From assembly GCF_005239225.2 (NCBI RefSeq), contig NC_133300.1:4059875-4123874 (forward strand): a stretch of DNA of 64,000 nucleotides, read 5' to 3'. The notes beneath the pieces were generated by a model, which made no database searches, was not told where the DNA came from, and worked only from the letters and a program-made list of their open reading frames with translations. Numbering within the stretch: the first letter of the stretch is position 1; the number at the start of each line of letters is the position of its first letter. This document shows, piece by piece, positions 2 through 60,786 of this stretch. This DNA comes from Populus alba. Lineage: Eukaryota; Streptophyta; Magnoliopsida; Malpighiales; Salicaceae. The translations under genes and the position numbers were made by a program.

Positions 2-1302
2 GACAACCAAGGTTGGGTTGATAAATTAGAAGGTTTACCCAATAGCGATTTTAAATGGAGAGCCCCATGGGTAACAACAGTAAAGGTCCTAATGAGTTGT
101 GGACAAAGGCGTTGGGTACCATTGGTGGGGATTACGGGTTATGTGAGTTATGCTCCGGCTTTAGTGGTAAGACAACTTGGGGGCATGCAGTTTGTTCCCA
201 GGACTATGGGAATTGCTCAATTCTTTGGTCTGTTCAAAGATCCCATGGCAGAAGAAGTTTTGGAGATCATCAAGCAAGATTGGAAGCATCTCGTGTTGGT
301 GGAGATAGAAGGTTTGAGAGATCCAAGTGTGAGCGAACGATACGTAAAATGGAGAGCCTCAGCTGCTTCAGCCATGCCTTGCGTAGAAGCAAAATCTCCG
401 CAAGCTGTAGAGGAGCCTATTAAGAGAAAAAGGGTTAATATTGAAGATGATTCAGCTGCTCCAGCCATGCCTCGTGTAGAAGTCAGATCTCCTCAAACTG
501 TAGAGGAACCTATTAAGAGAAAGAGGGTTAACAATGAAGAAGACTTGAGAAGGCAAGTGGAGAAACTACGAATAGAATTGAGCAAGAGCAGAAAAGACAA
601 AGCGATGTTGGAAGAAATGATGCTAGAACAGGATAAAATGAGAACATTTCTAGATGAGCAAATACAGTCTAGAGACATGAAAATAACAAAGCTTGAGTCA
701 AAACTGGGTGAGGAGAAGATTGCTAGGGAAAGAAGTGAGAAGGAGCTAAAAGGGGTGAACTTGAAGCAATGGAGATGGACTTTAGCGATTGCCAAGAAAG
801 TGCAGAATATTACCAAGAGAAATTTGTGCAAGTGCAATTCGAACTAATGGATAGGATTGGGAAGTACGAGGATTTGAATAAGAGATATATGGAGTTGGAA
901 AACGAAAGGGGAGGTTTCGAGGATGTTAAAGCAGAGTTGGTGGTGAAGAAGAATGAGATAAAAGTTATGAGGATAAAGCTTGACAAAGAACGCGAAAAGG
1001 TGAAGTATTTAGACGAGAAGCTAGTAGCAATGGAAAAGCACAAGGATCAAATCGACGCCAACAACACGGCTTTGAACAGAACCAACATGTTGCTCATAGA
1101 AAAAATGACCAAAATAGATGAGCAAATGGACGAAGCTGCCGCACACTCTCGAATTATTAGAATCAATACACATCATGTGGGAGGAGACATCATTCGCTAT
1201 CGCCGAAGCCTAGCTGAAACCGATGCCTTTCTAGGGAAGATTGAGAACCGCGGTTTTGCTTTCTTACCGTTGGCTAAAGAGTTTAGGGAGGAGAGGGATT
1301 AG
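2..1302 (+). pseudogene. Tat/Ogre extra ORF (DUF7745-like), frameshifted, 5' end off window
   Basis: The frame is open from base 2, so the start lies left of the window. The first ~75 residues (motifs VPLVGITGYVSYAPALV and RQLGG, then FVPRT) look like the C-terminal part of a plant DUF7745/mobile-domain-like protein. That family is often found as the extra ORF upstream of gag in Tat-lineage elements; this is from memory of the family. The rest is a charged Lys/Glu-rich coiled coil. A duplicated stretch near residues 92-110 and 126-145 (SAAPAMPRVE and EEPIKRKRVN) is visible. Near base 765-770 the frame shifts: coding character leaves frame 2 and resumes in frame 1 (DFSDCQESAEYYQEKF onward), stopping at 1300-1302. 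The protein has no proven function. The frameshift makes this copy defective unless it is a sequencing error. Confidence 0.72.
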
Positions 1303-1621: not shown

Positions 1622-2776
1622 ATGGAAAACGAAGAAAGAGCTCAGTTAGAGTCACACTACCAGACCGAGTTGGAATCTGTGAAAAATGAAGTTTCTCGGC
1701 TAACCAATCTGCTTGAGCAACTTTTAAGAGCCAAGAACGGGGAGGGAACATCCACCCAACCACCTATAGGAGCACCGTTAGTCCATGTCCCGGGGTTATC
1801 TCAGAACTTGGGGGCAGATTCAGTGACGGGGCAGCACTTTGCACCTGCTATTCCCATTCAGCCCCCTCAAGCTCATATCACTGTAGATTTAACAGCCGAG
1901 GGGCCTTCCGATAATAGGTCCACTGGTTTTGTGAATGATGACAAGATATCAGCATTAGAAGAAAGGTTAAGAGCACTCGAGGGAAATGATTGGTTTGACC
2001 CCATGCGAGCGTCGGAAATATGCTTGGTACCTAACCTCACGGTACCAAAAGATTTTAGGATACCAGAGTTTATAAGGTACACTGGGTTGGAATGCCCAAA
2101 CACTCACCTTCGATCTTATTGCAATAAGATGGCTGAAGTGATTCACGACGATAAGTTAATGATCTACTTTTTCCAAGACAGTCTATCGGGATCTGCGCTA
2201 AGTTGGTACATGAGGCTGGATAATGTCAAGATTAAGAAATGGAAGGACTTAGTAGAGGCTTTCCTAAGGCAATACAAGTTCAATTTGGAAATTTCTCCAG
2301 ATCGAACGAGCCTCATGTCAATGGAAAAGAGAAGCCAAGAGTCAGTGAGGGCTTATGCGCAAAGATGGAGGGACGAGGCCACGCACGTGCAGCCCCCTTT
2401 GATAGAAACGGAGATGGTGACTTTGTTCGCCAATACATTCAAGGCACCTTACTATGAGCATTTAATGGGTAGCTCATCTCAACATTTCTATGATGTTGTA
2501 CGTGTGACGGAAAGGATAGAGCAAGGAATTAAAGCAGGGCGCATAGCGGAGCCTTTAGAGAAGAAAGGTTTTATGGGAAGGAAAAGAGAAGGGGACGTTA
2601 ACAATTTGGAAGGCGGGTACAAAGGCAAAAAAGTAAATTTCCACAGCCCACAAGCACCTACCTCTCAATTCCCACGCGTAAACTTTAACCAATCTTTTTC
2701 ACCTAACCGAACAAATAACCAACCAAACTACCAAAATCACTACCAAAGACCCCACTCAGGATACACTTCAGAATAA
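1622..2776 (+). pseudogene. gag: Ty3 gag, N-terminal part, ends at in-frame TAA
   Basis: The ORF encodes 384 residues. An N-terminal coiled coil (MENEERAQLESHYQTELESV) precedes a retrotransposon gag (capsid-like) domain at about residues 170-300, with the typical LSGSALSWYMRL and WKDLVEAFLRQY stretches and a VRAYAQRWRDEA segment. Such domains form the virus-like particle that packages element RNA. The tail is Asn/Gln/Pro-rich. The TAA at 2774-2776 is in the same frame as the following ORF, which continues without an indel, so this is a single nonsense change or a natural stop rather than a gene boundary. Tat elements usually encode gag and protease in one frame, so I read it as a lesion. Confidence 0.88.
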
Positions 2777-4924
2777 CTGTCGTCGTTACCCATGCCTTTG
2801 AAGGACATGTATGCCAAACTTTTGAGCATTGGACAAGTAGCTCCTATCCCTACACTACCACTACAACCACCATTCCCAATTTGGTACAAGCCCGATTTGA
2901 CTTGCGAGTACCATGGGGGTAATCCCGGGCATGGGATTGAAACCTGCTATGCATTCAAGAAGAGGTTATTGGAGCTTATTAAGTTGGGTTGGGTATCCTT
3001 CGAAGACAAGCCCAATGTTAATTCAAACCCATTGCCTAAACATGCTCCAAATAGTGGTGGAATAGGCATGATCGAAGTGGGAAATCAAGGCAAGGTGTTG
3101 AAGGTGCCGAAGAAAAGGTTGTACGACATGTTAGTACAATCAGGATTTCTAGAGGCAAAGGTGGTAAGGCAATTGGAGAGAGATGACTACTGTGAGTTTC
3201 ACGGAAGAGATGGACATCACATTGAGGATTGCGCCGAGTTTTGCGAAAAGATCGCAAAAATGTTGAAGATGGGACAATTGAGGATTGAACCCATGGAGAG
3301 CAAGTGTGAGGTGAGCATGATGGAAGGTGAAGATGAGATGGTAGGAGTTTGCAGGGTCCAACAGACTGCTAATGGGCCCCCAAGGCTTATCTTGATTAAA
3401 CCGTCTTGCACAAAAGAGAATCACAATGCCATGCCGTATAATTATGGGTATGCATCTAACATTCGAGCGCCTCTTCCTTTGTTCCAGACAGAGATAGGTG
3501 GTTTGACCAGGAGTGGTCGTTGCTTTACGCCTGAAGAATGGAGGAAGGAAAAGGGTAAAGAAGTGGTCGATCTGGACAAAGCACCAGAAGTTAATAAGCC
3601 GGTAACAGAAGAGGAGTCGAATGAGTTTTTAAAGTTGATCAAGCATAGCGAATATTGCATAGTGGATCAACTAAAAAAGACTCCAGCTCGGATCTCCCTT
3701 ATGTCTCTGATACTCAGCTCTGAGCCGCATCGAAATGCCTTGCAAAAGGTATTGAATGAGGCATATGTACCCCAGGACATTGAGCACAAAACCATGGAGC
3801 ATTTAGTGGGGAGGATCCATGCAACTAATTACCTCTACTTCACGGCTGATGAGCTTGATGCTGAAGGTACCGGACACAACAAGCCTTTATACATTACTGT
3901 TAGGTGCAAAGACTGCCTCATAGGGAAGGTGCTCATCGATAATGGCTCGTCCCTCAACGTGTTGCCAAAGCACATTCTGGAGGAAATGTCAATTGATGAA
4001 TCCCATATGAAGCCAAGTACTATGATAGCCAGAGCATATGATGGCTCACCTAGGCCAATACTTGGGACTTTAGAAGTGGAGCTATATGTGGGACCACAAA
4101 TGTTCCTAGTGACACTTCAGGTTATGGATATCCACCCTTCCTATAGCATGTTGTTGGGAAGACCTTGGATCCACGCAGCGGGGGCAGTAGCTTCATCATT
4201 GCACCAATGTTTGAAGTACATCATGAATGGGATGTTAGTAACCGTCAAGGCTGAGGAGGCAATATCCATGATAAAGAATGTGGTTGTGCCTTTCATCGAA
4301 GCGGAGGATTGCAAGGATAACAATATCCATGCTTTTGAGATCGTGAACACCGACTGGGTGCCGGAGAACACCGTGCTAAGAAGGCCAAGAATCTCAGAAG
4401 CAACAAGGATGGCAAGTCTATGTTTCTTGAACCGTGGGGTCCCACGTCGATATAACCTCGCTTGCGGAATACCAGAAGGGGCTAATCCGACAAGGAAGAG
4501 AAAAGTTGATCAAAGATTTGGGCTAGGATATCAACTTAACCAGGAGGATTATCGTTGGGCTGCTGATCGGAGAAGGACAAGAAGGATGGCTAGAATTAAA
4601 GGAAGAGATCTTGAAGAAGAACAGCTGGAAATCCCTCCCCTTAGCGTATCATTCCCAAAAGTTGCATACATAGTGCAACATGATAAGGGAGCTGAAAGCC
4701 TGGGTCTAGAGCTGGCAAGTATGAGCATAAACACCTTGGAGGGAAAGGAGAAGGAAAAAGGTGTCGCGAAAGCAATGGCGGGAAAAGAAGATGAAGTGCT
4801 GCCACAACTGACGATCCATACCCTAGAAGAAGTCTCCGCCAAGACCTTTGTGCGCAAGTTGGCTCAAGGCGAAAAGTTCCAGAATTGGGTGACCCAAGAA
4901 GCTCCAGTGGTTTTCAAAATGTAA
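2777..4924 (+). pseudogene. pro: Ty3 gag C-terminus and aspartic protease
   Basis: This continues the gag frame after the 2774 stop; the first ATG is at 2792. Two Cys/His clusters (CEYHGG near 2902; CEFHGRDGHHIEDC near 3190) resemble gag zinc knuckles. The retropepsin-like protease has its active-site signature as IDNGSSLNVLP near 3935-3967, followed by the flap region and LLGRPWIHAAGA near 4150. Protease cleaves the polyprotein. DNG replaces the more common DSG/DTG, though Asp-Asn-Gly is seen in plant Tat elements as I recall them. Unspliced, the frame ends at TAA 4922-4924. The last codon overlaps a good 5' splice site at 4921, so the natural continuation may be by splicing into pol. Confidence 0.85.
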
Positions 4925-5131: not shown

Positions 5132-8100
5132 GAATCCTGAAAGCGGATCTCCTACAACATCACATACATCTAACATCAAGAATAAATGGCCAAACTTGAA
5201 CGAGCATGTAATATCTATGGAAGAAGAAGAGTGGGATGAAAGCAATATCAGTGAATTCACCAAGCTAGTAGAACAATAGGAACAGACTTGGAAGGCTGCC
5301 GCCGAGGAACTCGTAACCATCAATGTGGGCAATGGTCAACTCAAGAAAGAATTGAAAATAGGTACCCTAATTACTTCTGAACAAAGGATGAAAATGATCA
5401 CCCTACTACATGAATATTCAGATGTCTTTGCTTGGTCCTATGAAGATATGCCCGGTTTGGATACAAGCATTGTAGAACACAAGATACCGTTGGAAGAAGG
5501 TTATAAGCCAGTCAAGCAGAAACTGAGGAGGGCCCACCCGGACGTCTGGATCAAGGTCAAGGCAGAACTCGAAAAGCAATGGGATGCTAGTTTTTTAGAA
5601 GTAGTTAGATATCCACAATGGGTATCTAACATTGTTGTGGTGCCTAAGAAAGAAGGGAAGATTAGAGTTTGTGTGGATTTTCGGAATTTGAATAGAGCTA
5701 GCCCTAAGGATGATTTTCCTCTACCACACATAGATGTTTTAGTGGATAATGCGGCCCGAAGTTCCACTTATTCCTTTATGGACGGTTTTTCATGATACAA
5801 TCAAATAAAAATGGCTCCAGAGGATAAGGCGAAAACAACTTTTGTCACACCTTGGGGGACCTACTGCTACAAGGTCATGCCATTTGGGTTAAAGAACGCA
5901 GGTGCAACATATCAAAGAGCAATGGTGACTCTATTCCACGACATGATGCACAAAGAAATTGAGGTGTATGTAGATGATATGATTGCCAAGTCTAAAAGGG
6001 GACAGGATCATGTGGAAGTTTTGAGGAAGTTATTCGAGAGGTTGAGGAAGTATGAACTAAGGCTTAATCCTGCAAAATGTTCATTCGGAGTTAAATCGGG
6101 CAAGCTGTTGGGATTTGTGGTAAGCGATAGAGGTATAGAGGTGGATCCAGATAAAGTGAGGGCCATTCAAGCTATGTCATCCCCTAAGACGGAGAAAGAA
6201 GTAAGAGGATTCTTGGGAAGGTTGAATTACATTGCTCGATTTATAGCTCAGCTAACAACAACATGCGAGCCTATATTCCGACTGCTAAGGAAAAAGAATC
6301 ATGGAACCTGGAATGAGGAGTGTGAGGAGGCATTCAATAAAATCAAGCATTATTTACAAAATCCACCTTTACTGGTGCCTCCTGTATCAGGGAAACCTCT
6401 AGTATTATATCTAACCGTAACTGAAGTAGCCATGGGATGTGTATTGGGTCAGCATGATGAAACCGGAAGGAAGGAAAGAGCTATTTATTACTTGAGTAAG
6501 AAATTCACTGAATGTGAGTCCAGATACACGGAGATAGAAAAACTTTGTTGTGCGTTGGTGTGGGCGGCAAAGAGGTTGCGACATTACATGTTATACTATA
6601 CCACTTGGTTGATTTCAAAATTGGATCCCCTGAGGTATATTTGTAACAAGCCTTTTCTCTCAAGTCGAATTGCGAGGTGGCAGGTTTTATTAGCAGAATA
6701 TGACATAGTGTACATGACAAGGAAAGCCGTAAAAGGGAGTGCAATCGCAGACCATCTGGCCGATAATGCTATTGAAGATTACGAACCTTTGGATTTTGAT
6801 TTCCCTGATGAAGATATATTGTCAATAGAAAAGGAAGAAGAGAAGACAGATTGGTGGACCATGTTTTTTGACGGGGCAGTAAATGTATATGGTAACGGGG
6901 TAGGGGCGGTAATAATCTCTACTAATAAGAAACAATACCTAGTTTCGGTCAAACTACATTTCGAGTGCACCAACAATACAGCTGAGTATGAAGCTTGTAT
7001 ACTCGGTTTAGAAGCGGCATTGGAGTTAAAGATAAAGAAGATAGATGTATATGGGGATTCAATGTTGATCATCTGCCAGGTCAAAGGGGAATGGCAAACC
7101 AAAGAAGAAAAGTTGAGGCCGTACCAGGAATACCTGTCCATGCTAGCAAAGGAATTTGAAGAAATTAGATTCACCCATCTGGGAAGGGAGGGGAACCATT
7201 TTGCGGATGCTTTGGCTACACTAGCTGCTATGACTACCATTGACCTCAAGTGCAAGGTACAACCGGTACACATTGATATTAGAAACGATCCAGCGCACTG
7301 TTGTTTAGTTGAAGGAGAGATGGACGGACAACCGTGGTATTACGATATCAAGAATCTTGTGCAGAATCAGGAATATCCGGTGGGAGCTTCTAAAACGGAT
7401 AAGAAAACCTTGAGAAGGTTGGCTATAGGCTTCTATTTAGATGGAGAGATTTTGTATAAAAGATCATTTGATGGAACCCTGTTAAGGTGTTTGGATGAGG
7501 CAGATGCTAGAAAGGCATTAAGAGAGGTCCATGAGGGGATTTGCTCAACCCATGCTAGCGGGCATATGATGGCAAGGAAAATCCAAAGGGCTGGTTATTT
7601 TTGGATGACACTAGAAAAAGATTGTATCGACTATGTCAGAAAATGTCACAAATGTCAAATTTACAGTGACAAGGTCAATATGCCACCAGCTCCTCTGTTT
7701 AACTTAACATCTCCATGGCCCTTCGCAATGTGGGGAATTGATGTGATTGGACCTGTAAACCCAAAAGCGAGCAATGGTCATAGATTTATCCTCGTGACTA
7801 TTGACTACTTCACAAAATGGGTAGAAGCCGGGTCATTTGCTCATGTGACACAAAAAGTGGTGAAGAGATTTATTGAGAGAGATTTGATATGTCGGTATGG
7901 TCCACCAGAAAAGATTATAACTGATAATGCCCAGAATTTCAACGGCAAGATGATAATAGAGCTCTGCACTAAATGGAAAATCAAGCATTCCAATTCTTCG
8001 CCATATAGACCAAAGATGAATGGGGCGGTAGAAGCCGCTAACAAGAATGTCAAAAAGATTATTCAGAAGATGGTAGTCACCTATAAGGATTGGCATGAGA

Positions 8101-8582
8101 TGTTACCATTCGCCCTTCATGCATATCGCACCGCAGTTCGAACTTCGACAGGGACTACCCCATATTCTTTGGTGTACGGTATGGAGGCAGTGATGCCTTT
8201 GGAAGTGGAAATCCCGTCGTTAAGAGTGTTAATAGATTCTGAGTTAAAAGAGGCCGAGTGGGCCAGAGTGAGACACGAGCAACTGAACCTGATCAGTGAA
8301 ATGAGGATGGCCGCAATATGTCATCACCAACTTTACCAGAAACGAATGGCTAAGGCGTATGATAAGAAGGTTAGACCGCGGTTGTTTCAAGAAGGGGATC
8401 TAGTATTGAAGAAAATATTGTCATTACCCGGAGATGATCAAAGCAAATGGGCACCAAATTATGAGGGTCCTTATATAGTAACAAAGGCATTCTCAGGAGG
8501 AGCGTTGAAGTTAGCTAGAATGGATGGAGAAGACCTAGCTCGACCTGTGAATTCTGACTCTGTAAAAAGATATTACGCTTGA
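5132..8582 (+). pseudogene. pol: Ty3 pol: RT, RNase H, second RNase H, integrase; two in-frame stops
   Basis: One frame runs from 5132 to the TGA at 8580-8582, broken by TAG 5277-5279 and TGA 5793-5795. The second stop lies inside RT, just after SFMDGFS. RT motifs include VVPKKEGKIRVCVDFRNLN, MPFGLKNAGATYQR and the catalytic YVDD at 5967-5978. RNase H follows (IYYLSKKFTE, about 6485). A second RNase H sits at about 6850-7230 (FFDGAVNVYGNGVGAV, NNTAEYEA, GNHFADALA); this dual RNase H marks the Tat lineage. Integrase has an HHCC finger (7530-7660) and D,D35,E residues in DVIGP (7741), TDNAQNF (7921) and NGAVEAANK (8020). These enzymes copy element RNA and insert the DNA. Most motifs are intact, so decay is recent, but this copy cannot encode the full enzyme. 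Confidence 0.92.
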
Positions 8583-9238
8583 TGTAGTTCCCTGAATCAA
8601 TAAAGCAAAGTTTGGCCATTGATTTCTTTCTTTTTGTGCATTGATCTCACAACAATCATTTTTGTGCATCTCATCACTCATTTAAAAAGTTTAGCATCGA
8701 CTGAACGAATTTCTTCTCTAATATAAAAGCTCAAGCTAGGATCACACCCCTACACTGGGGGCAATACAAGATGTTTTATGAAAAGTTTTATGGAAGCCTA
8801 TAGATTTGAAAACCAAGCTAAAGCATTTGACAAAAGCATGACATAAAGGCAATAACAAATCTTACATTTTGAGAAAAGGACTACTGGAGGAAAGTCAAAT
8901 ACTTCTTCTCCAAGAATATGATAAGTAAAAAAGGCAACACGAGAGATGAATCCAACATACGACTTCAAAAGCAAGCTCATGTTACGAGGGAGTCTCATGA
9001 ACTAGAAAAGAGGATGGGGGCCTATGTTTCAAAACCAGGTACGAATGCATGCATTGCATCTAATCATAAAGTCATTGCATGTATGTTTTTATCGTTACAG
9101 GAGGAGATCTTAGTGCATTCCAACCAGTTTGTGGACGAGGAAAGAATCATTGAGTTGAGTCTAGAACAACAAGAAGAGAAGATAATATTTTTCAAATCCT
9201 GCCAACAGGAAGAACGACATCGATAACAATCGGTAAAA
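8583..9238 (+). other. 3' non-coding region after pol
   Basis: No conserved coding sequence is seen. It includes GGATCACACCCCTACACTGGGGGC (spanning about 8738-8762; G-rich core 8755-8761), which recurs with small changes at about 15985-16010 in the second unit. A 102-residue ORF at 8918-9226 shows no recognisable domain and reads into the repeat array. Confidence 0.5.
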
Positions 9239-10242
9239 GGGAATCGTCAGATGGGATTCCAAGTTGTTTGGTTAAAAGAGATCGCCAGAAGGGATCTCGT
9301 ATTTCGATGAAGGTCACCAGAAGGGACTTCATATTTCGGCTTTGAATAAAAGGAATCGCCAGATGGGATTCCAAGTTGTTTGAGATCGCCAGAAGGGATC
9401 TCATGTTTCACTATTTGGGGGTCGCCAGATGGGACCTCGTATTTCATATTGAATAAAAGGAATCACCAGATGGGATTCCAAGTTGATTGAGATCGCCAGA
9501 AGGGATCTCGTGTTTCGCTATTTGGAGGTCGCCAGATGGGACCTCGTATTTCATGTTGGTTAAAAGGAATCGCCAGATAGGATTCCAGGTTGTTTGAGAT
9601 CGCCAGAAGGGATCTCGCGTTTCACTATTATGGAGGTCGCCAGATGGGACCTCACACTTCATGTTGTTTAAAAGGAATCGCCAGATAGGATTCCAAGTTG
9701 TTTGAGATCGCCAGAAGGGATCTCGTGTTTCACTATTTGGGGGTCGCCAGATGGGACCTCGTATTTCATATTGAATAAAAGGAATCGCCAGATGGGATTC
9801 CAAGTTGATTGAGATCGCCAGAAGGGATCTCGTGTTTTGCTATTTGGAGGTCGCCAGATGGGACCTCGTATTTCATGTTGGTTAAAAGGAATCGCCAGAT
9901 GGGATTCCAGGTTGTTTGAGATCGCCAGAAGGGATCTCGCGTTTCACTATTATGGAGGTCACCAGATGGGACCTCACACTTCATGTTGTTTAAAAGGAAT
10001 CGCCAGATGGGATTCCAGGTTGTTTGAGATCGCCAGAAGGGATCTCGTGTTTCACTATTTTAGAGGTCGCCAGATGGGACCTCGTACTTCATGTTTGTTA
10101 ATAGGAATCGCTAGATGGGATTCCAAGTTGAGTAAAGGAGATCGCCAGAAGAGATCTCATATTTCAATATTTGTCAAAGGAGGTCGCTAGAAGGGACCTC
10201 ATATTTCATTTTCGTTAAAGGGAATTGCCAGATGGGATTCCG
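9239..10242 (+). repeat. Tandem hairpin array, 28 modules, ~107-bp higher-order unit
   Basis: By eye there are 28 modules spaced 30-40 bp, arranged in triplets of about 107-108 bp. Each has a 6-bp inverted repeat around a GCCAGATGG or GCCAGAAGG core. The three stem types are GGAATC/GATTCC, GAGATC/GATCTC and GAGGTC/GACCTC. The stretch from about 9411 recurs at 9733 (offset 322 bp, three units) with few changes, so the array grew recently. Minus-strand ORFs of up to 119 codons here are products of the repeat. 3'-UTR tandem repeats are known in Tat/Ogre elements; the alternating stem types are the notable part. Confidence 0.95.
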
Positions 10243-10375
10243 ATGGCCGAAGAGGATTGTTGTAAAGAAAGAGTTTCAGATCGATCAAGCTTCGACCAGA
10301 TCAGTTTCGGGAGTTTAGTTTGGATTATCTTTATAAAACTTACTGCGCAAAACCTTTGCTCCGTAAGCTCTATAA

Positions 10376-10387
10376 ATAGGGGGCATC
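10376..10387 (+). promoter_or_regulatory. Polypurine tract next to LTR A
   Basis: AATAGGGGGCATC lies immediately before the TGTTG start of LTR A, where plus-strand DNA synthesis would be primed. The equivalent at LTR B is TTGGGGCATC (21155-21164). Confidence 0.6.
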
Positions 10388-11405
10388 TGTTGTAACCCTT
10401 TTTTTTGGGTCCCCGCAAAAATTAAATAAATAGCCAAAGAAGGCTAGAAAAATAACAGGAGGCAGAAACGCTCAGAAAATGGTCAGAAAATTGGTCAAGG
10501 AGTATAAAAATACAAAGATTGGATTTTTGGCAGTATATTCTTGAAGGATGAGGGCCAGGTTTAGAAAGGAATTTTGAATTTTTGAGGAGAAAAGCCCAAA
10601 TTTGGATGTTTATGGACTTAATTGAATTTTTAATTGGATTTATAGGGGATTTGATTGCAAGAAAAATTGATTTTTAAGTCAATTTGGGCTTTAAATAAAA
10701 TAAATTTAAGTTCTGGGGCCAAATTATATTTTTTAGGATTTTATTAAGTCAAATCAGGGGCTCAATTGCATAAATATTGAAGTTTAATGGCCAATTAGAG
10801 GTTTAATTGTTGAAAATCCGAAACCAGGGACCAATTTGAAAAAGGCACAAAGATAGGGGGCTGTTTGGAATTGATTGAGGGGTCTAATTGAAGAAATTGG
10901 AAGTTTATTGATAAATTGAGGGCTAAATTGCATAAATTAGAGGCCAAGGACTAAAGTGGAAAAGGCAGCCAACTAGGCGAACGAGACCGAAATTAGCAGG
11001 GACGCAATTGAAAGGAACAAAAATAATTGGGGGACTGATGTGAACGTTGGCGCGTTTCTGGCGCCACATTTGAATGAAACGACGCGTTTTCTCCAAAACG
11101 ACGCCGTTTCATGCGTTTAAAAAAAAAAAAAAGAATAGAGACCAAACGGTGCCGTTTTGAACGGCACTGTTTCTCTTCTTCTTCCCCCACGCAAGCGTAG
11201 CAGAGAAGAGGAAAACCGGGGTTTTTGTCCCCGCCTCTCTCCTCACGTGCCATGGCCCGACGCTCCACACCTTGGGACCCCCGAAACCGAAGCCACTGGC
11301 CGACCACCCGCCGCGCCACCGAAACCGAGAGAAGCACCTCGGCAGCGACGCCTGCCGCCCGACCGACCAGCACGCCTCGTTCCCCCATGCATGCCCCGAT
11401 ATGCC

Positions 11406-11413
11406 TATAAATA
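11406..11413 (+). promoter_or_regulatory. TATA box of LTR A
   Basis: TATAAATA sits after a GC-rich stretch and before a purine-rich region; it is the likely element promoter. Transcription would start about 30 bp downstream. Confidence 0.6.
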
Positions 11414-11779
11414 GAGAAGAAGCAGAGTGAGAAGAAGGAGGAGGAGACGAACGAAAAAGGGACCCGAAAAAGGAAAAAAAACCGAGACAGTGAGAGAGAG
11501 AGAGACCGAAGGAGAGAGAAACCACAGAACTTAAGAAACAGCGACCGAAAACCAGAGTGGAGAAGCTTGGGATAGTTTGAAACCGAGAGGGGACTCAAGA
11601 GGTTGAAACAGGAGCAAGCGAACCGAAGGTGTGGTTTCGGTCCACTTTGAAACCACGTGAGCCAAGCCGCTGCCACCGCCTCCACCGCAGCCCCCGCCAG
11701 CAAGCCGCCGCCTCCGCTGCGCCAAGTACACTATCCTTACCCCGTGTATTCTTTTCTGTTGAAGGCTGGCATAGGTTGG

Positions 11780-12022
11780 CCTCCTGCATGCAGAATCGTT
11801 CTGCATGCAGGAGGCATACGGGGGGGGAATAATTCCCCCCCCGTTCATTTCTTTTTCTTCTGTTGGGCCAGACAGGGTCTGGCCCATGATATGCGTCTGG
11901 GCCGTCCGGCCCAGATTGCGGTCTGGGCCGGTCCGGCCCAGATCAAGACAAGATGCTGTTGGGCCGAGTCCGGCCCAACGTTTTTGGGGTTGGAGTCCGG
12001 CCCAGTTAGTTGGGCCGGCCCA
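11780..12022 (+). repeat. Cluster of seven perfect hairpins with TGGGCC cores in LTR A
   Basis: Perfect inverted repeats follow one another: 11780-11814 (16-bp arms, loop TCG), 11820-11842 (11-bp arms, G8/C8), 11864-11886 (10 bp), 11896-11915 (8 bp), 11922-11942 (10 bp), 11958-11979 (9 bp) and 11997-12018 (8 bp). The last five share TGGGCC/GGCCCA but differ in flanking stem bases. They lie 370-600 bp downstream of the TATA box, so they would be in the transcript leader. Confidence 0.92.
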
Positions 12023-13678
12023 GCCCACTTGATATTAATATTATATTATATTATTATATATTGTATGTATATATATTTTATTTTTAAAAAAATAAAATAA
12101 AAAAAAAATTTCTGAAAAGTCTAAAAAAAATATATATTTTGTTGTTTGCTTTCATATATATATATATATATATATATTTTGGTTTTTATATATACTTTGA
12201 TTTGTATTTTTATACTATGGGGTACAATTTCAGTGTTTAAAAACACCCGTTTTCGTCAAAAAAAAAAAATTGTTTCTTGCGTGTTGCATACGGCCAATAC
12301 TCTAACATGTTTTGAATTTTTTTTATATACAAAAAAAAAAATATTGAAAGCTTTGAAGGTGTGTTTTCGCATGGATTTCTTAAACACAAATTATTTTCTT
12401 GCATTTGTGGATTTTACAACATGTTTGTAAAACTCCAAAGGGTATTGGCCAATATTCCAAAAAACTATAGAAATCTTATTTTGGGAGGAGAAATCGTATT
12501 TATTATTCACCGCTAATGTTTGGATGAAGAGATCTTTAAAAGGATGAACATCCAAAATATTTTTGGAGTAATAAATCTATACACATGTTTGAAAGAAGCT
12601 TTTATTACTCCACGGTTTACGAGTCGTGAAAGATAAAATTGTTTTTTTTTTAGAGTTGTGAAATTTTCTTCGTTCCTTTTTGTTTTTCCTGTTCCTTGCG
12701 ATTTACGAGTCGCCAACTCCTGAAATACTAAGGAAAAATGAGCTTTCAAAGCACATGGAATCTCCTTAGGTTTCTATCCAAAATAATTGACGGGTTTAGA
12801 AGACACCAACACCATAGACTATAGAGCAAACCAAACACCAAGCAGCTTACCTTAGGTAGGGCGTACTAGGGGTGCTAGTACCTTCCCTTTACGCAACCAG
12901 TCCCTTGCCTTAGAATCTCTGAAAGACCAGTTAGGGTTCCTAGTGACAAAATACTAGGTGGCGACTCCAAAGAACCAAATCATTAGAACACAATGAAAAT
13001 CGCCAGCCGATGCCGCGCGCCTTTAGATTTTTGAGGGGTGTGACATGTATGTTTTTGCATTTTTGTCTTATTTTATTTTTGTTTTATCCATGTATTTTGT
13101 AGAATTGTCTCATGCATCATATAGTGTAATTTTTTTTTTTAAAAGCACACACAAGCTTCAGGTTAGGAGGGGGACTAGCAGGTTACCTTACGACTTTTAG
13201 TCAAGGTTTAAGTTTGTGTAAACCCGAACTCTTCGTTGAGTGCTTAGACTAGTAACGGTTGGTACACGTACCATCTCATTGCCTACAAGCCCCCATATTG
13301 CCTCCACGAGGGCGATCACTGGGACAACGAGAGACCCTTTTTAGAGACCAAATAGTAAGCCTACCTTTTGTCTCACTTAAAAAGATTAGAACCTGTCTTT
13401 AGGATGTATGGTCCGTATACATTGTTTTGCATCCGAGCAAGCTCTTCTTGAAGCATCTTGAACTCCAGACTTATGTGTGACACAATGACCGTCGCTCAAA
13501 AAATTTTCATTATAGAGTTTGAGCAAGAATCAAGATTCTTGTTTCATCATACAAGAGTTGCGACCATATGTCACCCCTCGAAGGGCAAGTTCGTCATATA
13601 GATTACATATTCATACATTTATCATGCATGTACCGGGTTGAAAGGTAGGTCCCCCCACACAAGCTGTGCTGCACGTGA

Positions 13679-13981
13679 TTGAAGAAAGAGGATGGAAGTG
13701 AAGAAAGGTGTCAAATAGAGGCTTATTATCATATTAAGCTTGAGAGCATCAAAGGTGAAGTAGCTGACTCAGCTTTGCTCGAACAAGTGTTGAGCATCAA
13801 ATGGAAAGAGAATGTCTACACAGTCTTCTATGGGAACACTGTTTGGTCACGTTCAATTGAAGCTATACCTCTTCTTTTCAGTAATGAACAACAACAACAA
13901 TGTCGTCAGTCATCAACTAATGACAACTCTAGTTCTTGTCCAGTTGCACTGTTAAGTGTTCATCGCCTCCACATCATCTAA
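13679..13981 (+). pseudogene. Relic of gag N-terminus
   Basis: The 100-codon frame contains EERCQIEAYYHIKLESIKGE followed by LLEQVLSIK. This aligns by eye with the start of the first unit's gag (EERAQLESHYQTELESVKNE, LLEQLLRAK). After about 45 residues the similarity ends and the frame becomes Gln/Ser-rich. No capsid domain follows. The start here (ATTG; no ATG) is not a true initiation site. Confidence 0.65.
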
Positions 13982-14059
13982 TGGAACCAAACAACTACTA
14001 ACCTCTTGTACATGGTGCATTAGTCTTCTTTGAAGTTACCCCAATTATGAGCTCAATTC

Positions 14060-14600
14060 CAGTTCAGCAGCACAAGATGTTGGTCTGAAAAAACATGATT
14101 AGACACTGAATTTCTATGTGGTAAAGCTCTCTCTGTAGAGATTTATTTGTGGATCTGCCAATGGGAAATGCAAAAGGGGATGTATTAATTACATATGCTT
14201 TGAAACTTTTTCCCACCAGTGGCACGAGCAAAACATTGTACTAGGCAGAGGAGTCAGGCCTGGTCTGAAAATATGAGTAGTCGTCGAACTTCAACGTGGC
14301 AGAGCTCTCTCTACGAAAACCTGTTTGTGATGCTGCAAGTTGAGAGTGCAAGAGAGGATTTACTAATTGCAAATGTTATAAATATTTCTCTCATCAGTTT
14401 CAGCACGAAGAAACTGTAGCATGTTGAAGAGCCAGATTTGGTTTGAAAAACGTTACGCAGACATCAAGCTTCAACGTTGTAGAGATCTCTCAGCAGGAAT
14501 CTATTTGTGGATCTGTAAATGGGAAATCCAAGAAGGGATGCAGTGGTTTCAGATTGTCCACAATTTTCGCCTACTAGTATTGGCATTAAAACGCAAAAGT
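14060..14600 (+). repeat. Three diverged ~180-bp tandem copies
   Basis: The anchor TGGTCTGAAA recurs at 14081, 14261 and (as TGGTTTGAAA) 14439. Further shared blocks are CTTCAACGT, AGAGCTCTCTCT and GTGGATCTG with AATGGGAAAT. Copies differ by many substitutions. Confidence 0.75.
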
Positions 14601-14979
14601 GGTTGTTTGCTGCACCGTCAGTGAGGAATCAAAGAGGAAATAGAGGAGTTGTGGATTCATCAGTTTCTCTTCCAATTTTGCCAATAAATGATTCCATACA
14701 TTTTTGTTTTTGCGCACTGCCAAGATTACCTAGATATTGAGAGGTTTCCAACAGTCCTAAAACAACAACAACAACAACAACATTGGAAGGTTGACATGAA
14801 GTTGTATGGATTGCCAAAAATTGAACAAGCTATGAGGAGAGGAAAGATTAAAGGATCTTCCATGGATTCCAGAACAATAATGAGAGGTGAATTATAAGAA
14901 TCTGACGATGGAAAACCTTAATTATGTTGGTCTAACCAAGTCTTGTTGTATCATCGACTACTCCAATGTCTTTTAACAG

Positions 14980-15310
14980 AATCTGCCAGATTTTAGACTT
15001 TTGCTAGACTCCGACAAATCCCATGCAACTACCATTTTCTATGCGGTATAATCCAGACAAGAGATGTGATGTCATGGTGGGGTCCTTGGCCATTTCAATG
15101 GAATAGTTGCAAGAATTTCAATTGAATAGTTGTCATGTGAGTTTATTTGCCAGCATCTGCTAGATTCCAGTCTTTTACCTGACTCCGACAAATCCCATGC
15201 AACCACCATTTCTAGGTGGTTTAATCCAACAAGAATGTGATTCATGATGGGGTCTCAACCATTTCAATTGCAGCAATTTGCAAGAATTTTCAAGAAGCGA
15301 GTCTAAAAGT
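14980..15310 (+). repeat. Two diverged ~173-bp tandem copies
   Basis: GACTCCGACAAATCCCATGC occurs at 15008 and 15181. Each is preceded by a variant of ATCTGCCAGATTTTAG and followed by CACCATTTCTA-like text and ATGGTGGGGTC. Confidence 0.8.
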
Positions 15311-17404
15311 TGGTGAGAAAGGGACAGTGGAGCTTGCAAAGGAGGGTGTCATTGGCTATATTGTCCCCCGAACATCTTCAAAATGACATGTGATCGAAAG
15401 TGCTTGGCAAAACATAGATATTGCCAGAAAAGCTTATTCAAGAATGGTGATGAACTGTCAATCATATTGTTATGGAATTCTGCATTTTGTTTTGGGGATC
15501 ACATCTCATCCTTCAACGAAACATGCCTTGCTTTTGTCTCTTTGTTTTTTTTTAAATCAATAGATGTTTAGCATTTTATTCTGACAAAAATATTTTGATC
15601 AAACTCCAACATGCGATAAAGGTTAATCAATCCGGAAGATTAAAAGTGTTTTGATTACAGAAATGACTTGATGCTTGAAAAATGATATGAGGTGACCTAA
15701 ACCAATTTTGAACTCATACCTCCTGAAACTGAACCACACATCATATAGCTAAGTTTTAGCATTATGCATAATGACATGTAGTGGATTCGGTAGTTATGGA
15801 CTCGTGAATCATGATTCTTACAAGTCCAAATCATTACACCGGATGGGGTCAAAATTTATCGGTTCTAACCGACCTTGCTTGAAATGAGAAAAGGCCATCT
15901 TTGATATCCCTTCACTTTCTAAAGATTATATCCCTTGTAGTCCCATTTTGAGCTTAATAGAATATTTTTTATGAAAACCCTGACTAGGATCACACCCCAC
16001 ACTAGGGGCAAATGATATATTTTGAAACATTGATATGATTAATGGATAAAGAGGAAGCTTAGAACAAAAAGTCCAATGATTGAGAGAAAGCTAGAAGAAA
16101 GACACATAGACTGGGGGCATATAAGAAAGTTTTGAGGAAGGCTATAAAAAAAAAATGAAAAAAAGGAAGTTGAAATTGCCTTCACTTAAATACAAGTCAA
16201 AGATAAAGGATGGAGAACGCCTATCATGTCTATGAAAAGCAAAAGAAATTTCAATCAAGGAGGGACACAACAAAAGTCAATACTAGAAAAAAAAAAACTA
16301 AGCTATAAACGTGACTTTTGGTTTCTATTATAAAGCCTATGATGTTATCAGATGATTGAGGTTGGTTATTCATCAAGGAAAGGGGGATTTGTATTATGAC
16401 TTATGTTAAGAAAAGTCTGAACTTTGAGGTTAACAAGGTTATATGTCGTTTCCTCTACAAAGACAACAATAGAAAACAAGTTGATGAATAGTTGATGTTG
16501 ATCCTAGGTCTTTGAAACCCTCAAACACCTTTTGAGCCTTTGAAATTCCTTTCTTTCATAGCCATGAACCATAGCCTGCATTACATGCTTTTAAAAGCCC
16601 TTTTTAATCAAGTAAGCAATTTGAACCGATAAATGACGCTCTCAAAATTTGAAGAGTTTTTCCATAAGGGTCGTGACTTCATGAATTAAGCTATTGGTTA
16701 TTATGCATGCTGATAAAACAAGTGCTAAGAAAAGAAATAACCTTTCTTGATAAAGCCTAAGTGTTGACTTGGGTGCCTTGCTTTTGAAATTCACGCAAAG
16801 GTCACCTCATCATAGACTATCAAATGATATACCTAATATCAAGGATTCAAATTGATACAAAGAACCATGGAAAAAGCCATTAGTTGATGTTGAACCATGG
16901 AAAAAAGCCATTGGGGTCAATTTCTGTTTTCAAAATACGAGACAATCAAAAGACTGTGTATTTCGAATAACGTGTGTTGGGTCTTTGATCAAAAAGCTTG
17001 ATTTTCAAAAGATTTTCAAAAAGGACATCTCTGATTTCATTTCAACAAACTAGACTTTGAATAGACATGATCTTTGAAATGTGAGAGTTGATTCTAGAAC
17101 AAGGAAGATTATCAAACACAAAAGAACATTGATCGAGTATGCAAAATCGTTGATAGAAATGACATTGAAGTCCTCGACACTCCTTGAAAAGTTGAGTAGC
17201 TGGGGGCAATACAGTAGACCTTGAAAAGGAAAAACAAGCAGTGCTTAGATCAGCTATGAGGCAATGATTAAATGATGAATCAGTGAACTGAAGACAATGA
17301 TGTTCAAAGACAAATAAATCAAATGAACGAGCACATTCAGATCATATTGGGGGCAATGTCATTCCAAAATGGCTCATGCTCCAGTGAACCCTGTCGGTAA
17401 TGGA
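15311..17404 (+). other. Non-coding body of the second unit
   Basis: No conserved coding sequence is seen in either strand. Several G-rich CTGGGGGCA-like motifs occur (about 16003, 16122, 17202). The pair AACCATGGAAAAAGCCATT at about 16863 and 16891 is a short local duplication. Confidence 0.5.
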
Positions 17405-17660
17405 GAAACAAGGATGTACTTGAAGGACACTTTCATATCATCATCTTTTGAAACATGGTTAGCAATCGATGAAGATACACAGATGAATGTAATTGAATGG
17501 TGAAAAGATGCACACCACCAAGACTGACTGTGGAACAATGCTGCACTTAAAGGACAATCTCATATTGTCATTCTTTGAAACATGGTTATAGACAGATGTT
17601 ATCACACAACTACACTGAATGAATGTCGGAAAGGCACCCACATCGAAGACTGATTGTGGG
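17405..17660 (+). repeat. Two ~127-bp tandem copies
   Basis: TTTGAAACATGGTTA occurs at 17447 and 17574. Flanking blocks GTACTTGAAGGACA / GCACTTAAAGGACA and AAGACTGACTGTGG / AAGACTGATTGTGG repeat in the same order. Confidence 0.75.
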
Positions 17661-18639
17661 ACAACTTGTTCTGAAGCCAGATGAGCGCTTTACCGCATGA
17701 GTATGGGTGATAAAAAGCAGCATCATTGATGAGGCTGAGACATTTCTTTTCACAATCTGATTAGAAGAGTTGAAAGGAATCTATGAGAAGAGCATTGAGC
17801 ATACAACCATGAGCCTTTGTACTGCAAGCTATGAGATGCATGTCTGGATGACTGGATGAGTTCCAAGAAGGCTGATGATAACATGTACTTGAAGAGTACT
17901 GTTTCAACTAGAGTCAAGTTCATGACTGATTAACAATCTTGATGGGTATTGACATGATGCACACAATCAATCAGAGGATAATTCTTAGAAGAAGCCAGGA
18001 GAGAAAATCCTTCATGATGAATCAAGCAGTACCACACTTGGGGGCAGGGTCAAGCTTGATGAACGATGCAAGCAGTAATTGTCGAAGACAGCCCGGGATG
18101 GGCACTGCATTTACAGCTGAGTGGATGGCTAGCACATGAATGAGCCAATGCATCAGAAGAACAAAAGAAAGCTTTGGGATAACAAACAAGGGCACCTATG
18201 ACGATGGAGCATCGAAGAGGGGGGGACCTATATTTCAATATCAGGGTAAGGATGCATGCCAATATCATCTAACCTCAAAAAAAAAAAAAACACCATTTTG
18301 CACATATTTTTGAATTGTTACAGGAAAATCCTTAATGAGGTCCAGCAAGATGGTGGAAAAAGAAAGAAGCATTGTGGTGATGATAATAAAGAATCGATTT
18401 TGATCATGGAATAAAAGGACGATGGGATGAACCCTGCCATTAGGAAAATCCCAAAGAAATGAAGAGATCAACCTTGCAATCGGGAAGCCTCGAGTTTTCA
18501 ACTCTTGCAGTCAGGAAACACCGAGTTGTCAAATCCTATGATAGGGAATTATCAGGAAGCACCAAGTTTTCCAGCCCTTTTTCTGTCATCCCCTCAAAGA
18601 CTTCGCCAGGTAAGTCCTATTTTTCACACTTGTCATATC

Positions 18640-18935
18640 ACATCTTCCATTTGGGTTGGTCACCCATGACAATGAGACCGCACTTCACATTCTTTCTATT
18701 TTGGGTAGGTCGCCCATCACAACGAGACCACTTCATCATATTTTGTCCATCCGGGTAGGTCACCCATGACAATGAGACCGCCCTTCATCATATTATTTCC
18801 ATTTGGGTAGGTCACCCATTATAATATGACCACACTTCATATTCTTTCCATCTGGGTAGGTCACCCATCATAATGATACCATTTTTCATATTCTTTCCAC
18901 CTGGGTAGGTCACCCATTACAATAAGACCTTTTTT
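18640..18935 (+). repeat. Hairpin-type array a: GGTC-CCCAT-GACC units
   Basis: At least six units of about 50-60 bp occur, each with GGGTAGGTCRCCCAT followed after 8-12 bases by GAGACC. GGTC and GACC form a short inverted repeat in most units; later units are damaged (ATGACC, GATACC). Confidence 0.8.
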
Positions 18936-18958
18936 TTTTTACATTCTTTTGTTTTGGT

Positions 18959-20560
18959 TAAATGAGGTCGCCAGATGGGATCTCATGTAGCTTTGGTTAA
19001 AGGGAATCGCCAGATGTGATTTCAGGTTGACTGAGCTACACACAGTTTTTAGTTCCAGTAATGAGGTCGCCATATGGGATCTCATGTAGCTTTGGTTAAA
19101 GGGAATCTCCATACGGAATTTCAGGTTGACCGAGCCACACACAGGTTTTTGGTTCTGGTTAGAGGGGATTGCCGAATGGAATCTCAGTCTATCCCAACCA
19201 CACACAGGTTTTTGGTTCTGGTTAGAGGGGATTGCCGAAAGGAATCTCAGTCTAGCACAACCATACATATGATTTTGGTTTTGGTTAGAGGGGATTGCCG
19301 AATGGAATCTCAGTCTATCCCAACCACACAGACGTTGGTTCTGGTTGAAGGGGATCCATGAAGCAGGTCTCAGTTTCAGCCAACCACATAATATTTTGGT
19401 TTTGGTTGAAGGGATCGGCGAAGGAATTCTCAGTTCAGCCCAACCACACAGATTTTGGTTCTGTTTGAAGGGGGTCGGCGAAGGGGTCTTAGTTCAGCCC
19501 AACCACACATTCTTTGGTTATGGTAAAGGGGATCGGCAAAGGGATCTTATTAGTTAACCTAATTGAAAGGATTTTCGTTTGGTTGAAGGGGATCAGCAAG
19601 GATCTCAGTTAGCTACTCACACATTCCTTGGTTATGGTTAAAGGGGATCGCGAAGGGATCTCAGTTTAACCTAATTGGAAAGGATTTTGGTTCTGGTTAG
19701 AGGGATGCCGCAAAAGGAATTCTCAGTCTAGCCCAACCCTACACATTCCTTGGTTATGGTTAAAGGGAATTGGCAAAGGGATCTCAGTTTAACTAATTGG
19801 AAAGGATTTTGGTTCTGGTTAGAGGGGATTGCCGAAAAGGAATCTCAGTCTAGCCCAACCCTACACATTCCTTGGTTATGGTAAAGGGGATCGCGAGGGA
19901 TCTCAGTTTAACCTAATTGGAAAGGATGTTGGTTCTGGTTATAGGGATTGCCGAAAGGATCTCAGTCTAGCCTAACCCTACACATTCCTTGGTTATGGTT
20001 AAAGGGGATCGGACGAAGGGATCTCAGTTTAACCATTTAGTTACTGTTGGTTCCTAATTGGAAAGGAATTCTTATATGGTTCTGGTTATTTTTTAATTCG
20101 ACCAAGAGTCGTTTACACCTAAAATTTGGAAATCATTTTCGGCTTCTGGGTTTGACTTCCCGAAAGGAATCTCAGTCTAGCCCCAACCCTACACATTCCT
20201 TGGTTATGGTTAAAAGGGGATCGACGACAAGGATCTCAGTTTAACCTAAATTGGAAAGGATTTTGGTTCTGGTTAGAGGGGATTGCCGAAAGGAATCTCA
20301 GTCTAGCCCACCCTACACATTCCTTGGTTATGGTTAAAGGAGATCGACAAGGGATCTCAGTTTAACCAATTGGAAAGGATTTGTTTCTGGTTGAAGGGGA
20401 TCGGCGAAGGGATCTCAGTTCAGTCTAACCACACATACCTTGGTTATGGTTAAAGGGATCAGGCAAAGGGATACTCAGTTTAAGCCTAATCAACGCACAA
20501 TCACTAGATGGGATTTCAGGTTGATCGAGCTACACCACCGATTTTTGTTCTTGTTAGCAT
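18959..20560 (+). repeat. Hairpin-type array b: irregular ~100-bp units
   Basis: More than 20 modules carry GAGGTCGCCAGATGGGATCT, GGGATTGCCGAAAGGAATCT or GGGATCGGCGAAGGGATCTC, separated by TTTGGTTCTGGTT, TTCCTTGGTTATGGT and CAACCACACA spacers. Stems read GGGATT/AATCTC or GGGATC/GATCTC, with one G-T position. Many single-base insertions and losses show that the array is old or poorly sequenced. Confidence 0.85.
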
Positions 20561-20589
20561 CACCATATTGGGATCTCAGGTAAACCAGG

Positions 20590-21030
20590 GGCAATGGGAG
20601 ACGGGCAAAAGGGAAGGTCGCCCCTGAAAACAGGTTTTCTCACCAGCGTGTGGAGTGTATAGGGCAGGATCGCCGACCCTGAAAAAAACAGTGTGACTGA
20701 AAACAGACAATGTGAGGTGTGGGATATCGGTCGCACCTGAAAATAGACCAGAGTGAGTATGTGTGGCAGAAAGTCGCCCTGAAAACAGACCAGTGTGAGA
20801 GTGTTGGGTCGGTCGCCCCTGAAAACAGACCAGTAGTGAGTATGTGTGGGCAAGTCACTCGTGAAAGTAGACTAGAGTGAGTATGTGTGGGCAGGTCGCC
20901 GGGAAAAATAGACTAGTGTGAGTGTGTGGGCAGGTCGCCCACTGAAAATAGACCACTTTGAGTATGTGTGGGCAGGTCGCGCCGTGAAAGTAGACTAGAT
21001 GTGATTGTGTGGGCCGGTCACCCCTGAGAA
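20590..21030 (+). repeat. Hairpin-type array c: GGTCGCCCCTGAAAACAGACC units
   Basis: About nine units of 40-60 bp occur, each with RGGTCGCC...TGAAAATAGACC followed by AGTGTGAGTATGTGTGGGC. GGTC and GACC (some units GTC/GAC) are complementary again. The array stops about 135 bp before LTR B. Confidence 0.85.
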
Positions 21031-21166
21031 ATAGACCACTTTTCTTCAAAAGGGGCATGTTCGCCCAAGATAATAAGATCATTTTCTTTTCTATATCTTT
21101 ACATAAAAGTTGCAAAACATTGAGTAGTTTTGCTGTTAAGCATTGTAAGAAGAGTTGGGGCATCTG

Positions 21167-29433: not shown

Positions 29434-29548
29434 CTGCTAAAATTCACTCTTGAATCGATAGCGAGACAGCATCGTAGACCTGCTAAAATTCACTCTTGAA
29501 TCGATAGCGAGACAGCATCGTAGACCTGCTAAAATTCACTCTTGAATC
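29434..29548. repeat. 46-bp tandem repeat, 2.5 copies
   Basis: Units start at 29434, 29480 and 29526 (CTGCTAAAATTCACTCTTGA...). The first two are identical; the third stops after 23 bp. Confidence 0.95.
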
Positions 29549-42168: not shown

Positions 42169-43494
42169 ATGGACATAACTCTCTTCAGTCCAAAAGACAC
42201 ACTGACACACTTCTTTCCTTCCCACCTGCAAAGCAATGATCAAGTAGCAGCTATAGACATGCAAAGCAATAGCAGCAGCAACAACAATAATCAGCCTCAA
42301 ACTAGCCATACATCAACAAGCCGGTCTTCGGACTCCGGTGAGGCCTGTGGAGGAGGAAACAAGTGGGCATCAAAGCTTCTTAGTGAGTGTGCAAGAGCAA
42401 TCTCAGAGAAGGACTCTAGCAAGATCCACCACCTTCTATGGATGCTAAATGAGCTTGCCTCTCCTTATGGAGATTGTGATCAGAAATTGGCATCTTATTT
42501 CTTGCAAGCTCTATTCTGTAAGGCTACCGAGTCTGGTCAACGGTGTTTCAAAACCCTAACAACAGTAGCTGAAAAGAGCCACTCCTTCGATTCAGCTAGG
42601 AAACTGATACTAAAATTCCAAGAGGTAAGCCCGTGGACTACTTTCGGTCATGTAGCTTCAAATGGTGCAATTTTGGAGGCCTTAGATGGGGAAAGCAAAC
42701 TTCACATAATTGATATCAGCAATACCCTTTGCACACAGTGGCCTACTTTGCTAGAAGCTTTAGCCACAAGAAATGATGAGACGCCGCGATTAAAGCTCAC
42801 CGTTGTGGTAACTGCTAGCATTGTAAGATCAGTCATGAAAGAAATAGGCCAAAGAATGGAGAAGTTTGCTAGGTTAATGGGAGTGCCCTTCGAGTTTAAA
42901 GTAATTAGTGTGCTAAATCATGTAGGAGAGCTCACAAAGGAAGGACTGGGTGTTCAAGAAGATGAAGCAGTCGCGATTAATTGCATTGGGGCATTGAGAA
43001 GAGTTGAAGTAGATGAAAGAAGTTCTGTAATCCAGCTGTTCCGATCACTCAACCCTCGAGTTGTGACAATTGTTGAGGAAGAAGCTGATTTCACCAGCTC
43101 GAGATATGACTTCGTCAAGTGCTTTGAAGAGTGCCTGAGGTATTACACACTATATTTTGAGATGCTAGAGGAGAGCTTTGTCCCAACTAGTAATGAGAGA
43201 TTGATGTTGGAGAGGGAATGTTCAAGGAACATAGTTAGGGTTTTGGCTTGTGATGAAGAAACTGGCGGAGGAGAGTGTGAAAGAAGAGAGCGGGGTGTCC
43301 AGTGGTCTGAAAGGTTAAGGGAGGCGTTTTCCCCCGTTGGATTCAGCGATGATGTTGTCGATGATGTCAAGGCATTGCTTAAGAGATACAAAGCTGGGTG
43401 GGCACTCGTGCTCCCTCAAGGAGATCATGAATCAGGAGTTTACTTAACATGGAAAGAGGAACCTGTAGTATGGGCTTGTGCATGGAAACCCTAA
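42169..43494 (+). CDS. SHR: SHORT-ROOT-type GRAS transcription factor
   Basis: Single-exon gene, 441 residues. SHORT-ROOT is a mobile nuclear regulator of endodermis, vascular and cambial cell identity that acts with SCARECROW. The N-terminal ~60 residues are low-complexity Ser/Asn. The GRAS domain starts at [13 protein letters not shown] (about 65). Motifs in order: LHRI with [25 protein letters not shown] variant LHIIDIS (178-184), [11 protein letters not shown] (191-201), [19 protein letters not shown], the PFYRE-like region ending [16 protein letters not shown], and the SAW domain to the C-terminal [23 protein letters not shown] and [14 protein letters not shown] are SHR-subfamily signatures. 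It is shorter than Arabidopsis SHR (531 aa) mainly at the N-terminus, like the short SHR2-type poplar paralogues as I recall. The start ATG sits in CACCCATGGA. No lesion is seen. Confidence 0.94.
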
Positions 43495-60528: not shown

Positions 60529-60786
60529 AAGCCAATGAACCGCGAAAATGGTATGGCTATCTTCAACAGCTGATTAGATGGCCTGAAACGGTTCCCTCAT
60601 TGTGTTAGCATTATTGATGTAGAAGGGCTCATTCTAGACTACTTGTTGAATGTTCTCCCATGGCCTACCTAGAAGTGACAAGAGAATGCTTTTTAGAGGA
60701 AAGCATTTTTGTTATACGAGATCATTGATTGGCATTCTGAATATTTTCAAATTTTTTTCCGTGGGATTTTACTTCCCAACCAAGAA

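Follow-up and report, generated by a model that had tools for sequence, protein, structure and literature searches.

Genomic setting of the array and classification of the element

The window analyzed here is a 64,000-nucleotide stretch of the Populus alba genome, the first 13 kb of which hold most of one Ty3/gypsy element. Its parts, all read on the forward strand, are a DUF7745 ORF upstream of gag (92..847), a gag ORF with a Retrotrans_gag domain (1622..2776), an ORF following gag (2792..4924), a pol ORF (5811..8582), an array of 28 hairpin modules located between pol and the 3′ LTR (9240..10241), and the 3′ LTR itself (10388..13045). The ORF that follows gag did not match any Pfam entry; in our own reading it contains two C-X2-H-X4/5-H-X4-C stretches, which are candidate zinc knuckles. 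Within the pol product, part of a reverse transcriptase was recognized, together with an RNase H (RT_RNaseH, residues 194-297), a second RNase H (RVT_3, residues 353-471), and an integrase (rve, residues 637-734), and thus the second RNase H sits between the first one and the integrase.

Directly 5′ of the 3′ LTR lies GGGGGCATC (10379..10387), presumed from its sequence to be the polypurine tract. The LTR begins with TGTTGTAACCC, its outer end is not settled, and it shares 96% identity over 2.68 kb with an upstream copy (L009:5895-8521). Inside this LTR (11876-11943) a 27-bp unit is repeated 2.5 times and holds a G+C-rich inverted repeat (GGCCCAGA...TCTGGGCC). Elsewhere in the window there are a GRAS gene (42169-43494), a 46-bp unit present in 2.5 identical copies (29434-29548; 100% matches), perhaps a recent expansion, and a 166-bp tandem repeat of 4.6 copies with 91% matches (60786-61554).

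An extra sense-orientation ORF upstream of gag is a feature of Ogre elements, and the DUF7745 ORF (92-847) occupies this place. According to PMC6317226, a second RNase H between RNase H and integrase is a trait of Ogre and Retand; this order is present in the pol of the window element (RVT_3 between RT_RNaseH and rve), which places it in one of these two groups. The element also has tandem repeats in the interval from pol to the 3′ LTR, which PMC7004042 calls common in Tat elements. For Retand, PMC11963269 gives antisense coding regions between pol and the 3′ LTR in all cases, and TRP28 in 97% of clusters. No intact ORF of at least 150 aa was found on either strand between 8582 and 10388 of this copy. 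Since there is an ORF before gag and no long antisense ORF after pol, Ogre is favored over Retand, and the window element is, judging by its domain order and ORFs, an Ogre-like Tat element of the Ty3/gypsy group. Five candidate primer-site patterns gave no match, and the end of the 5′ LTR is not settled.

Structure of the array

A recount confirmed the array of 28 mini-hairpin modules reported at this site by the initial annotation. Each module in 9240-10241 consists of a 6-bp stem around the 9-nt core GCCAGAWGG. The three stems described there, the exceptions GGGGTC/GACCTC and GGAATT/GATTCC, and the core were all found as described, the last with slight variants (GTCAGATGG, ACCAGAAGG, ACCAGATGG, GCCAGATAG, GCCAGAAGA, GCTAGATGG, and GCTAGAAGG). 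Six Watson-Crick pairs can be formed in 24 of the 28 modules; three others have one G.U pair, and the last one (AAGGTC/GACTTC at 9310) combines one G.U with one A.C. The layout is mostly a 107-bp A-B-C triplet, where A is GGAATC/GATTCC, B is GAGATC/GATCTC, and C is GAGGTC/GACCTC. Three module types, already matched in both arms, were multiplied as this triplet, and this arrangement implies that the matched stem differences of the window for the most part go back to three inherited types that were copied. The matched changes at stem positions 2-4, on which the annotation had built its case for selection, are therefore real, but within the window they mostly reflect old types multiplied as a unit.

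A coding role of the array was rejected, as no ORF of at least 150 aa covers it and its period of 107 bp is not divisible by 3. Screening with the Rfam 15 covariance models gave no match in 9239-10242 at E values up to 1, and a known RNA family was on this basis ruled out as the identity of the array; in the rest of 8500-22000 there were four matches, all under their gathering scores.

Distribution of the modules and sister modules

The modules recur in the genome far beyond chance. Allowing at most one mismatch, the B-type core GATCGCCAGAWGGGATC was found at 1834 + 1835 sites of the 416-Mb genome, against 0 + 0 when the same pattern was read backwards. The polypurine tract/LTR junction pattern was found at 304 + 323 places genome-wide, and the junction loci were drawn from the first 100 of these listed, all on a single contig (C1). 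From the first 54 junctions, 40 loci were fetched (L030-L069), 12 lay already within loci chosen by the motif, and two were skipped; from the next 46, 12 were fetched as 1.6-kb pieces and formed a replicate set. All sampled loci lie on contig C1 of one genome, with the exception of the window and L009. Nine loci that overlap others (L001-L008 and L029) were left out of the module counts, L001 having entered an earlier survey of stem types.

Among the 40 junction loci (L030-L069), which were picked regardless of modules, 36 have an A-, B-, or C-type module within 3 kb upstream of the junction. Three of the remaining four carry 10-12 sites resembling the E and F modules described below, and L051 has none. 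It is worth mentioning that L051 contains, at 3635-3775 and ahead of its junction at 4002, three units similar to GATCGACGAAGGGATCTC whose core is different; they may represent another module type.

The stems of A, B, and C dominate in the sampled loci. Other element families carry the variants A2 (GGAATC/GATTTC), B2 (GAGGTC/GATCTC), and D (GGGATT/AATCTC, core GCCGAAAGG), in which one G.U pair is the rule (58 of 62, 46 of 59, and seven of eight modules, respectively). Furthermore, there are sister modules, i.e., E (GGTCACCC...GACC), F (GGTCGCCC...GACC), and E2, a derivative of E with a stem of three to four pairs. Several of these types are combined in a second element of the window, whose pre-LTR region (18645..21038, forward strand) holds E modules (GGTCACCCAT...GACC) from 18645 (18645-18929), A2/B2 and D modules (18961-20489), and F modules (GGTCGCCC...GACC; 20729-21038), and whose 3′ LTR presumably starts at about 21165, as placed from the junction motif alone. 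Several element families of this genome carry the modules ahead of the 3′ LTR.

In the viral contigs searched for relatives, there was no match to the module pattern. Viral relatives were also sought via a pol peptide pattern; two stretches matched, and neither was confirmed by tblastn.

Covariation of the stem positions

For the covariation analysis, 734 modules were reduced to 406 unique 41-mers, and substitutions were reshuffled on a tree (60 replicates, 820 column pairs). Pair 3 ranked first of 820 (E 0.067), pair 4 ranked fourth (E 2.1), and pair 2 ranked 20th (E 32); under the same null and for the same 406 unique modules, pairs 1, 5, and 6 gave no covariation signal. Phylogeny-aware covariation therefore supports, marginally, pair 3 alone, and of the covariation expected by the annotation at positions 2-4 this one position stood, whereas positions 2 and 4 did not.

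A few newly matched stems were found: GAAATC/GGTTTC (one G.U) in four loci, GGGATT/AATCTC (one G.U) in two loci, GGGGTC/GACCCC in two loci, and GAGATT/AATCTC in one locus. A counterexample, AAGATC/GACTTC with two A.C pairs, occurs in eight loci.

Such a picture would suit three ancestral palindromic units that were duplicated neutrally, with paired changes of old date and decay accounting for the rest. Three stems dominate, the covariation test is mostly not significant, and exact copies are many (406 unique 41-mers in 734 modules). Covariation no higher than that of three multiplied ancestral units had been named in advance as evidence against selection, and the data come close to it, with pair 3 alone standing out. 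What speaks against this explanation is the ratio of departures from pairing presented below.

Departures from pairing are strand-specific

A transition in one arm of a stem leaves G.U, still a pair in RNA, or A.C, which is not one, and each outcome is the mirror image of the other when the opposite DNA strand is read. As the arms are inverted repeats, they share the same in-stem sequence context, and hence neutral mutation should yield G.U and A.C in about equal numbers. Pairs 2-5 were scored and pair 1 served as a control; pair 6 (30 G.U to 5 A.C) was left out because its C lies in a CpG. Modules were assigned to classes from core and spacers, with the stem letters unused. The raw counts omit pair 2 of A2 and pair 4 of B2, where the majority pair is itself G.U, although both were kept in the per-class table. 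The test was conceived before the 12 replicate loci were fetched and analyzed.

Departures at pairs 2-5 favor G.U over A.C in the sense strand. Raw counts were 113 G.U to 25 A.C (734 modules, from the 57 of 61 sources that contain modules); G.U exceeded A.C in 38 of these 57 sources, the reverse was true in two, and 17 were tied or had neither. A bootstrap over loci placed the G.U fraction at 0.75-0.88. The replicate set gave 21 to 4 (141 modules, in 10 of the 12 loci), and 8 to 1 among its 62 modules with a new 41-mer. Parsimony counts of events on trees of 462 unique 41-nt modules amounted to 54 G.U to 17.6 A.C on the tree built from spacer and core (binomial p 1.7e-4) and 43 to 16.3 on the tree built from all columns (p 0.0037), p values that assume independent events, which is only roughly true, several loci having near-identical arrays. 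Decay after neutral duplication predicts a ratio of about 1.15-1.22, the control value obtained from unpaired positions, and the observed excess is more lopsided still on internal branches (15 to 1.6 and 16 to 3.4 on the two trees). Despite the dominance of three stems, we consider neutral duplication alone unlikely.

In the tree events, each of pairs 2, 3, 4, and 5 leans to G.U. The outermost pair shows no bias (events 23 to 21 and 20 to 17.4; raw 34 to 48, replicate 9 to 9). Among single classes there are exceptions (G.U:A.C), namely pair 2 of A (4:4) and of B (2:2), pair 4 of B (0:2) and of C (4:7), and pair 5 of A2 (0:2) and of B2 (0:2).

The sister modules differ: E agrees with the bias, F is mixed, and E2 leans the opposite way. 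The E stem GGTC/GACC has 21 G.U to 5.3 A.C events (raw 78 to 11 in the 61 sources, replicate 22 to 1), although part of the signal of its outermost pair may stem from a CpG beside the stem. Two other possible stems of E served as a negative control (17.6 to 23 and 11 to 14.6 events). The F stem, also GGTC/GACC, has 13 to 3 events and raw counts of 58 to 26 (61 sources), with 2 G.U to 4 A.C in the replicate; for E2 there are 2 to 6.1 events.

The G.U/A.C test supports RNA structure, and more sharply than covariation does. Because the excess is strand-specific, it suggests that the genomic or messenger RNA is concerned, and not DNA sites or antisense RNA. The claim of the initial annotation that pairing is under selection is accordingly upheld for sense RNA, by the preference of G.U over A.C at pairs 2-5 and by the few newly matched stems (pairs 2, 3, and 6), while strict covariation remains weak. 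That the inverted repeats are double-stranded DNA sites for a dimeric protein would suit their dyad symmetry and high copy number, and the repeated motifs of Sireviruses, according to PMC2829016, are likewise palindromic and proposed to be regulatory; since G.T and A.C, each being the other on the opposite strand, should fare alike in such sites, this explanation is highly improbable.

Predicted folds

Predicted folds of several modules consist of 6 bp, a bulged G, 2 bp, and a 4-nt loop, which we take to be the layout of the MS2 coat-protein hairpin; the comparison is one of predicted layout, and a point of difference is that the upper 2-bp stem of the module lacks substitution support. These two additional C-G pairs in the core, proposed by the annotation, appear in the folds of some modules and were not borne out: the first has no bias (5 changes from Watson-Crick to G.U, 9 to A.C), and the second, with 27.8 to 12 toward G.U, was discounted because its C was judged to be in a CHG methylation context.

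An H-type pseudoknot in E and F, with GGGT/ACCC crossing GGTC/GACC, was also rejected. For GGGT/ACCC, E modules show 17.6 G.U to 23 A.C events and F modules 9 to 7; the raw counts of E were 65 G.U to 46 A.C in the first set, with 0 G.U to 15 A.C in the replicate. Matched forms of this stem, GGGT/ACCC and GGGC/GCCC, do occur in E/F modules (window 18645-18929 and 20729-21038; L042, L044, and L057), with the bias favoring the GGTC/GACC stem alone.

The minimum-energy fold of 9236-9540 has some modules paired with remote ones and not folded on their own. Fold energies of this segment did not distinguish the strands (z -3.0 for sense, -6.0 for antisense).

Comparison with known systems

Hypervariable tandem repeats in the 3′ UTR of Tat/Ogre retrotransposons were reportedly described by Macas et al. 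in 2009 (cited in PMC7004042). Tat elements are well known to carry tandem repeats downstream of pol and ahead of the 3′ LTR (PMC7004042, PMC3305785, and PMC11963269), and minisatellites in such arrays are mentioned for soybean Gmr9/GmOgre in PMC3305785. The array of the window resembles the Tat/Ogre repeats in lineage features, in its position between pol and the 3′ LTR, and in its interleaved short units of variable number, and differs in that a small inverted repeat, biased toward G.U in the sense strand, is present in its units. The words "hairpin" and "secondary structure" have no occurrences in the main texts of PMC3305785, PMC7004042, and PMC11963269, and "palindrom" occurs in PMC11963269 in a reference title only. 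Among the matches listed in a search of mostly open-access literature, no paper addressed, by its title or the start of its abstract, hairpin modules or RNA-level constraint in Tat arrays. Tandem repeats at this place are thus already known, and the hairpin units with the sense-strand bias appear to be the new part.

In Sireviruses, a stem-loop has been proposed at the polypurine tract (PMC2829016); their palindromic motifs and polypurine tract inverted repeat, as presented there, resemble the modules as conserved motifs with dyad symmetry that are repeated in non-coding regions of a plant LTR retrotransposon. The RNA transport elements of mouse IAP and MusD are, according to PMC12786077, structured RNA in mobile elements. 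On that account they, and the MS2 hairpin as well, are similar to the modules in being structured RNA within mobile-element or viral RNA.

Putative role of the array

Two classes of causes fit the sense bias, i.e., a function of the folded RNA, and preferential amplification of folded units in reverse transcription. In the latter, hairpins would stall the reverse transcriptase, strand transfer would follow, and well-folded units would multiply, giving structure without function for the element. The arrays are indeed tandem and hypervariable, and such amplification would likewise produce a sense-strand G.U excess. The low-copy class B3 (median of one per locus, 40 modules) nevertheless has 19 G.U and 0 A.C at pairs 2-5, which favors function over amplification. 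Some caution is due here, as B2 may be the origin of 12 of the 19 (those at pair 4), and the remaining seven, at pair 2, were contributed by two loci. The presence of modules ahead of 36 of the 40 junctions also speaks against structure-driven amplification, and we regard it as a rather unlikely cause.

We prefer, at a probability of roughly 0.6, to read the array as the poly-hairpin 3′ UTR of an Ogre-like Tat retrotransposon, its stems kept by folding of the sense RNA, perhaps as a platform for Gag. The stems would be maintained because folding of the sense (genomic) RNA is required at this site, and the many near-identical hairpins in each RNA might then form a multivalent binding platform. 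The likeliest binder could be the element's own Gag, which may in this way pick out or condense the genomic RNA. Gag binding is ranked first, in view of the multivalence of the array and of the two candidate zinc knuckles encoded after gag; RNA export and, after it, RNA stability would be nearly as likely. Some Ogre elements contain an intron, as stated in PMC12786077, and for this reason full-length Ogre RNA may need export. The roles in packaging, dimerization, and RNA export suggested by the annotation are thus conjectural.

It is possible, and we put this forward tentatively, that Ogre-like 3′ UTR arrays in general are functional, multivalent structured RNA, with tens of hairpins per genomic RNA binding Gag or a host export factor and kept by selection on pairing amid sequence drift. 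Such arrays have so far been described mainly as a source of satellites, and a repeated hairpin whose substitutions carry a strand-specific signature would be a concrete candidate for a packaging signal. Moreover, the comparison of G.U with A.C departures offers a cheap probe of RNA-level constraint in those other retrotransposon repeats for which ordinary covariation has little power.
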